This document shows positions 6-41,211 of a DNA stretch of 64,000 nucleotides, piece after piece. The stretch is taken from assembly GCA_030830785.1 (NCBI GenBank), contig JAURMI010000003.1:62001-126000 (forward strand). The letters run 5' to 3'. Below the pieces are notes generated by a model, which saw only the letters and a list, made by a program, of their open reading frames with translations, was not told where the DNA came from and did no database searches. Each line of letters begins with the position of its first letter. The first letter of the stretch is position 1. A program made the translations under genes and the position numbers. Source of the DNA: Crocinitomicaceae bacterium. Lineage in GTDB: Bacteria; Bacteroidota; Bacteroidia; Flavobacteriales_D; Crocinitomicaceae.

Positions 6-821
6 TTACAAAACGAAGCGCTGAATATGTTTTGCCATTTGCATCTGCATGTTCAGCGCTTCGTGCTTAGCAGCTTGAGCAAAATCCAGAGCTGAACTTG
101 CATATAAAATTGAACGGGAGCAATTAATTAGCAACCCACACGAGGAGTTAGCACCATTTGCTACAACACTATCAATATCTCCACCTTGCGCCCCTACCCC
201 TGGAACCAATAAAAAATAATCCGGAACCAATTTTCTCACGCGCGAAAGATATGCTGGGTGAGTGGCACCCACAACAAACATCAATTGTTCAGAAGTGCCC
301 CATTGAGTAGATCGCAATAAAACTTGTTCAAAAAGCGCATAACCATTGCTTTCGATGAATTGAAAATCTTTTGCTCCTTCATTTGAAGTCAAGGCCAATA
401 GAATGACCCATTTATCTTTAAATTTTAAAAAAGGTTGCACAGAATCAGAACCCATGTAGGGTGCAACAGTAAGTGCATCGGCTTTTAAATGTTCGAAAAA
501 GGTTTGCGCATAATAACTCGATGTATTTCCTATATCGCCCCGCTTTGCATCCACGATTACCAAGCATTCTTTTGGTATATGGGCAATTGTTTTTTTCAGT
601 GATTCCCAACCCGCTGCACCATGGCACTCAAAAAAGGCAGTATTAGGTTTAAAGGCAACCGCATAGGGGTGTGTGGCATCAATGATTGCTTTACAAAATT
701 CAAAAAGAGGATCTTCGCATGCCAACAAATGAGCTGGAATTTTTGTTAAATCTGGATCGAGACCAACACATAAAAAACTTTCTTTTTGTTTAATTTGAGC
801 TATTAATTCTGCTTTGGTCAT
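6..821 (-). CDS. pyrF: orotidine-5'-phosphate decarboxylase
   Basis: 271 aa ORF; N-terminal FLCVGLDPDL, AFKPNTAFFE, VDAKRGDIGNTS and LLVPGVGAQGG motifs typical of the long (type 2) OMP decarboxylase. Confidence 0.95.
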   Translation of the reverse strand: MTKAELIAQIKQKESFLCVGLDPDLTKIPAHLLACEDPLFEFCKAIIDATHPYAVAFKPNTAFFECHGAAGWESLKKTIAHIPKECLVIVDAKRGDIGNTSSYYAQTFFEHLKADALTVAPYMGSDSVQPFLKFKDKWVILLALTSNEGAKDFQFIESNGYALFEQVLLRSTQWGTSEQLMFVVGATHPAYLSRVRKLVPDYFLLVPGVGAQGGDIDSVVANGANSSCGLLINCSRSILYASSALDFAQAAKHEALNMQMQMAKHIQRFVL

Positions 822-1897
822 GCGGTTTGGCCTTTTAATTTTTCAGCATTTTCTGCCATTTTTAGTGCATCTAACATTTCTTGTATGTCCCCATTCATGA
901 AAACATTCAAATTATACATTGTTTTATTAATGCGGTGATCAGTAATTCGACCTTGTGGGTAATTGTAAGTGCGGATTTTTGCCGAGCGATCACCAGTAGA
1001 CACAAGTGTCTTTCGTTGTGCCGCACGTTGGTCATGGATGCGATCAAGTTCCAATTGATAGAGTCTTGAACGCAGAACCGAAATGGCTTTTTCCAAATTC
1101 TTATGTTGAGAGCGTCCATCTTGGCATTCCACAACTAAGCCAGATGGTATATGGGTTAATCGAATAGCAGATTCAGTTTTATTGATGTGTTGCCCACCTG
1201 CACCGGAGGCCCTAAAAGTATCTTTTCGCACGTCGTTCATGTCTAGCTCAAAGTCAACCTCTTCGGCTTCTGGCAACACCGCTACTGTGATTGCAGAGGT
1301 ATGAACCCGACCCTGAGATTCTGTTTCTGGAACCCTTTGAACGCGATGCACACCAGACTCAAATTTAAGCGCCCCATAGATGCCATTACCCGTAATTTCG
1401 ATAGATATTTCTTTATACCCTTTAACAGAACCCTCTGAAGAATTTAAGAGTTCTACATTCCAACCCATAGATTTAAAATACATGGTATACATGCGATATA
1501 TGTCTTCGACAAATATACAGGCTTCATCTCCGCCAGTGCCGGCTCTTAGTTCCAGAATAGCATTTTTATCATCTTCTGGGTCTTTTGGAATGAGTAATAT
1601 TTTGATTTCCTCTTCTAAAATGGGTCTCTCATGTTCAAGTTGATCAATTTCTTGCTTAGCCATTTCGCGCATTTCAACATCCTGTTCCACTTCAAGTAAA
1701 GCTTTTGCGCTCGATAAATTGCCCAGTAATAGATTATATTTTTGATAAGTCTGATCTAAAGATTCAAGATCTCGGTATTCTTTATTGAGTTTTACAAACC
1801 TAGGCATATCGGAAATTATATCCGGATCAGTAATCATTTTGCTTACTTCTACAAAGCGAAAATGAATGGCCTCTAACTTACTGAGTAAATCTGACAT
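818..1897 (-). CDS. prfA: peptide chain release factor 1
   Basis: 359 aa; GGQHINKTESAIRLTHIPSG (GGQ motif), ELRAGTGGDEA; overlaps the pyrF start by 4 nt. Confidence 0.97.
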   Translation of the reverse strand: MSDLLSKLEAIHFRFVEVSKMITDPDIISDMPRFVKLNKEYRDLESLDQTYQKYNLLLGNLSSAKALLEVEQDVEMREMAKQEIDQLEHERPILEEEIKILLIPKDPEDDKNAILELRAGTGGDEACIFVEDIYRMYTMYFKSMGWNVELLNSSEGSVKGYKEISIEITGNGIYGALKFESGVHRVQRVPETESQGRVHTSAITVAVLPEAEEVDFELDMNDVRKDTFRASGAGGQHINKTESAIRLTHIPSGLVVECQDGRSQHKNLEKAISVLRSRLYQLELDRIHDQRAAQRKTLVSTGDRSAKIRTYNYPQGRITDHRINKTMYNLNVFMNGDIQEMLDALKMAENAEKLKGQTA

Positions 1898-40024: not shown

Positions 40025-40339
40025 ATGCAAAAGAAATTACATATCAAGATTGGAGACACTGTGAAGGTTATTTCTGGTGAATCCAAGGGTCGTGAAGGCA
40101 AAATAGCCTCCATAGATCGCCAAAAAATGCGTGCTACCGTGGAAGGGGTCAATATGATCAAAAAACACAACAAGCCTAGCGCAACAAATCCTCAAGGAGG
40201 AATCGAAGAAAAAGAAGGTTCTATTCATATTTCTAATTTGATGGTGGTTAACGGTGGTGTTGCATCGCGCATCGGTAGAAAAGAGGAAAAAGGGAAATTA
40301 GTTCGTTATTCAAAAAAATCAGGGGAGGTGATTAAATAA
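40025..40339 (+). CDS. rplX: 50S ribosomal protein L24
   Basis: 104 aa; [20 protein letters not shown] (KOW). Confidence 0.97.
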
Positions 40340-40890
40340 TGAGTTACACGCCAAGATTAAAAGAGAAGTACAGGAACGAAATCAAGCAAACGCTTCAAGA
40401 GCGTTTCAATTACAAATCAGTAATGAGCGTTCCTAAATTAGAAAAAATTGTTCTCAGCCAAGGTATGGGTGATGCTGTTGCAGACAAGAAGTTAATCGAC
40501 AATGCTGCAGCAGACCTATCTCGTATAGCTGGCCAAAAAGCAATTACAACGATTTCTAAAAAGGATATTTCAAACTTCAAATTAAGAAAAGGAATGCCTA
40601 TCGGTACAAAAGTTACACTTCGTGGTGACCGTATGTATGACTTTTTAGATCGTTTACTAGCAGTTGCCTTACCTAGAACACGTGACTTTCGTGGTATTAA
40701 TCCTAAAGGATTTGATTGACGAGGTAATTTTAACCTCGGAGTCAAAGAGCATATCATTTTCCCTGAAATTGATATTGATAAAGTAAATCGAATATTAGGT
40801 ATGGACATTACATTCGTTACTTCTGCAAGTAGTGACGAAGAGGCAAAAGCATTATTGGATGCATTTGGTTTCCCATTTATTAAAAAATAA
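40339..40890 (+). CDS. rplE: 50S ribosomal protein L5, interrupted by an in-frame TGA (40717-40719)
   Basis: Track ORF stops at 40719 after [14 protein letters not shown]; the same frame continues [56 protein letters not shown] to TAA at 40888-40890, giving a full-length 183-codon L5 with TGA in place of the invariant Gly of FDGRGN. Confidence 0.93.
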
Positions 40891-40896
40891 AAAGAA

Positions 40897-41211
40897 ATGG
40901 CTAAAGAATCAATGAAAGCGCGTGAGCGCAAAAGAGAAAGGTTAGTCAACCGTTACGAAAAGAAACGAGCTGAACTCACTAAAATTTTGAAGTCTACTGA
41001 AGCGTCTGAAGAAATTCAGTCTCAAAAATGGGACGCAATGATGGCTTTGCAAAAATTACCGGCAAACTCGGCTAAAAACAGAAAACACAATCGTTGTGGA
41101 TTAACTGGTCGCCCAAGAGGTTATATGCGTCAATTTGGAATCTCCCGTGTAACTTTTCGTGAGATGGCCTTGGCTGGTAAAATCCCAGGAGTGAAAAAAG
41201 CAAGTTGGTAA
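40897..41211 (+). CDS. rpsN: 30S ribosomal protein S14
   Basis: 104 aa; [29 protein letters not shown] (C- type). Confidence 0.97.

Follow-up and report, generated by a model that had tools for sequence, protein, structure and literature searches.

Does an in-frame TGA within the ribosomal protein gene rplE of a Crocinitomicaceae draft genome point to an unusual decoding of UGA, to a genuinely broken gene, or to a base that does not represent the living organism? The question is made acute by the nature of the product, as uL5 is essential in E. coli, where the central protuberance of the large ribosomal subunit requires it for assembly (PMC10531944). A fixed stop codon in this gene should be lethal, unless it is efficiently read through or a second copy is present. 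The gene lies in a stretch of 64,000 nucleotides (the window), which is part of a 341-kb contig (C23) of a 1.9-Mb draft genome that comprises 26 contigs and is ~83% complete.

The interrupted reading frame and its homologues

In the assembled sequence, codon 127 of rplE is TGA (Table 1). When this codon is read through, the frame that opens with the ATG at 40339 encodes 183 residues. The first 126 of these contain the Pfam domain PF00281 in full, together with positions 1-40 of PF00673, whilst the 56 residues 3' of the TGA match positions 42-94 of the latter, exactly one PF00673 profile column being replaced at the break. The preliminary description of this locus had reported a TGA inside rplE with L5 continuing in frame on both sides, which the two Pfam families bear out; it had also placed the end of the gene correctly, at the TAA at 40888-40890, but the sense codons that follow the interruption number 56 rather than the 57 it gave. 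A product of 126 residues would miss more than half of the L5 C-terminal domain. The further statement that no in-frame methionine restores this domain holds as well, the next ATG being 27 codons downstream and inside PF00673; a downstream restart was therefore rejected, as the lost part could not be restored in this way. Elsewhere in the window, the 3' end of rplQ (L17; 48372-48650) encodes a long, low-complexity C-terminal tail with Glu/Ala/Val repeats.

Table 1. Position of the rplE interruption and of its surroundings, in window coordinates
Feature	Coordinates	Strand	Remarks
rplX, intact, upstream neighbour	40025..40339	+	its stop and the rplE start share one base
rplE (uL5) frame	40339..40890	+	183 codons and TAA, one interruption; 99% amino acid identity to the intact L5 of G013
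In-frame TGA, codon 127	40717..40719	+	Gly codon (GGN) in 106/106 relatives read
L5 C-terminal part, 56 codons after the stop	40720..40887	+	PF00673 positions 42-94; purifying selection still visible
Perfect 6-bp inverted repeat CGAGGT/ACCTCG, 7-nt loop	40720..40738	+	directly 3' of the TGA
rpsN, intact, downstream neighbour	40897..41211	+	

The glycine that had been expected at the interrupted position is confirmed by its homologues. All 106 relatives with a readable motif have GGA, GGT, GGC or GGG at the homologous codon, and two aligned solved L5 chains carry FDGRGN at this site; the TGA is one base change away from a Gly codon. A comparison with close relatives, one of the checks proposed earlier, was made across the genus, where 70 rplE matches were obtained from 69 of 86 genomes. 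The copy in this genome alone contains a stop, the other 69 matches having none. In a class-wide sample, 372 of 395 genomes have an rplE match and, among the matches listed, this is again the only one with a stop. The nearest named relatives of the gene belong to Crocinitomicaceae and other Flavobacteriales assemblies. In the closest genome (G013), the L5 protein shows 99% identity, yet 75 of the 549 bases of the gene differ, and it follows that there is no same-species sequence for comparison.

The possibility of a second rplE copy had likewise been put forward for checking. Protein and Pfam searches identified one rplE, and no other, in the 1.9-Mb draft, from which ~17% of the genome is missing. 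Genomes of the genus with an rplE match have a single match in all cases except one, G097, whose two matches (C36:19357-19884 and C41:30-575), one of them at a contig end, possibly reflect assembly overlap or contamination. A plasmid collection yielded only distant L5 genes, with 60-80% DNA identity, and the exact 30-mer across the TGA had no match in viral contigs. The state of the gene after the stop also bears on how long the TGA may have been present. Compared with G013, this part shows 19 synonymous codon differences and 1 nonsynonymous difference; against eleven near relatives the figures are 14-28 and 1-3, respectively, and they are similar before the stop. As the differences are almost exclusively synonymous, with neither relaxed selection after the TGA nor a further stop in rplE, the gene has not decayed as a pseudogene. 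The TGA is therefore very recent, or not real, or read through.

TGA as a stop codon across the genome

Stop codon usage was counted on ATG-started open reading frames (ORFs) of at least 300 codons in a sample composed of the window and separate stretches, which together cover ~1.51 Mb of the assembly. The 622 ORFs of this sample end in TAA (395), TGA (117) or TAG (110). Natural termination at TGA is also evident within the window, where the terminal TGA of prfA (818-1897, minus strand) overlaps the ATG of pyrF (ATGA, 818-821). RF2 (prfB) is present, with a score of 486 bits and no internal stops. The genome contains 35 tRNA matches, and among the anticodons that ARAGORN assigned are Gly(TCC) and Trp(CCA). 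A search for UGA-decoding tRNAs had been suggested in the preliminary description; in the ~83% complete genome, it yielded no UCA anticodon among the tRNAs read by ARAGORN and no tRNA-Sec, the only match to the tRNA-Sec model above the cut-off (47.2 versus 47 bits) being a tRNA-Ser(TGA) at C18:185999. A weak tRNA-like match at C18:132244-132318 (33.4 bits, RF00005) was not called by ARAGORN.

The same sample was scanned for comparable lesions, defined as in-frame stops that have coding sequence on both sides and are followed by no ATG within 20 codons. Calibration on random internal codons of long ORFs gave a recovery of ~79% for the threshold used, at which rplE was the sole TGA case in the 1.51 Mb and the seven other cases were TAA; with the most permissive setting (92% recovery), rplE is joined by one more TGA case.

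These observations separate rplE from the known systems in which UGA is reassigned. A reassigned code, with UGA read as Gly (as in Gracilibacteria and Absconditabacteria), Trp or Sec, gains some appeal from the residue affected, since glycine is the meaning of UGA in genetic code 25, where TGA likewise stands at glycine positions. In contrast to organisms using code 25, however, a single gene is involved here, RF2 is intact, TGA serves as an ordinary stop and no tRNA-Gly(UCA) was found; instead of many conserved genes with TGA at Gly positions, one clear case was detected in 1.51 Mb at ~79% recovery. Bacterial selenocysteine recoding offers another partial likeness, as it combines UGA with an adjacent SECIS hairpin and a hairpin also lies directly downstream of the rplE codon. 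Nevertheless, the position is that of Gly rather than of Cys or Sec, neither of which occurs there in the 106 relatives read, the hairpin is not conserved and the candidate tRNA-Sec is a tRNA-Ser, and selenocysteine at the TGA was rejected. Code reassignment for the genome as a whole is refuted, and a reassigned genetic code is left with a vanishingly small probability.

Stop codon context and the downstream hairpin

The rplE stop is directly followed by C, as had been noted, and this UGA-C context is shared by only 9 of the 117 long TGA-ended genes of the 1.51-Mb sample, from which it would seem to be avoided at real stops. The inverted repeat that begins at the next base contributes to a comparatively stable fold, the 60 nt from the TGA having a predicted energy of -14.2 kcal/mol against a shuffle mean of -7.9 (z = -3.0). 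The perfect stem occurs in 0 of 106 relatives and is thus unique to this genome among the 107 compared. In several near relatives the stem is present but for a single mismatch, as similar codons specify the same amino acids there; these relatives being about one synonymous change away, the perfect stem needs no special explanation. Within the window, such a repeat is found just downstream at ~1% of positions, and on either side at ~2%.

A functional hairpin was rejected in view of the lack of conservation of the stem and its chance rate of ~1%. The hairpin is probably a product of chance, possibly an error-promoting feature, and as a coincidence it carries too little weight to speak for readthrough. 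Illumina miscalls following inverted repeats have been described (PMC3622629), and the changed base lies 3 nt away from the perfect repeat. The hairpin would fit a context-specific miscall of this kind just as well, which is suggestive only. Programmed or leaky readthrough systems, which pair UGA-C with a 3' structure, resemble the rplE locus in both features, but differ in that neither the stop nor the hairpin is conserved here, TGA being present in no relative listed. L5 is not known to be needed as two products.

Weighing the explanations

The TGA in rplE is probably a single wrong or unrepresentative consensus base. An essential gene, one recent base change, the absence of decay and a draft assembly together make an error or a minor allele the best explanation, and we infer that the T is either spurious or not fixed. 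It may stem from an erroneous base call or from a consensus error at low coverage; alternatively, the assembly may have incorporated a damaged allele or that of a minor strain. As far as the assembled sequence can be compared, the locus is like the isolated nonsense errors or variants of draft or metagenome-assembled genomes, in which a single substitution affects a single essential gene, without downstream decay and with intact relatives. One clear TGA lesion in 1.51 Mb is also in keeping with isolated base errors that occur at a low rate. Against this explanation, the 341-kb contig looks clean elsewhere, and the error would need to have become its consensus at this position.

Both a sequencing or assembly error and a strain-level nonsense variant, as originally proposed, stand. 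The latter would be a real nonsense allele carried by part of the population (a strain variant, a dying lineage, or cells that have a compensating intact copy elsewhere) that entered the consensus, and from which an L5 cut to 126 residues would be made. Environmental assemblies commonly contain mixed strains, and the missing portion of the genome leaves room for a second rplE copy. This scenario is nonetheless unlikely, given the essentiality of uL5 in E. coli (PMC10531944), the failure to find another copy, the stop-free and, but for one genome, single-copy matches of the genus and the undecayed sequence 3' of the stop. Considerably less probable still is site-specific readthrough at UGA-C aided by the hairpin, which would yield full-length L5 in which Trp or another residue replaces Gly. 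The rarity of UGA-C at long TGA-ended genes, the folding z-score and the conserved C-terminal part all speak in its favour, but the earlier suggestion of gene-specific readthrough has gained no positive support beyond this context and a hairpin that its relatives lack. Moreover, as the glycine is conserved, it would be poorly replaced by a near-cognate residue; the high demand for ribosomal proteins would not be satisfied by leaky readthrough; and no UGA-reading tRNA was found alongside the RF2 that is present. For a stop that is fixed, neither efficient readthrough nor a second copy has support as a rescue.

Under the preferred explanation of an erroneous or unrepresentative base, the living population most likely has an intact rplE, with glycine at codon 127 and normal translation, whereas automatic annotation would label the gene truncated or missing in this genome. 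The locus thus counsels caution whenever an essential gene of a draft genome contains a lone in-frame stop: the reads and genome-wide stop usage should be checked before recoding is proposed. A genuine, fixed TGA would make uL5 a surprising example of an essential ribosomal protein that can be produced only by readthrough. That a standard-code bacterium has fixed UGA in its uL5 gene and survives through efficient readthrough, by way of UGA-C and a new hairpin, is highly improbable; were it true, the supply of L5 would depend on the efficiency of termination.
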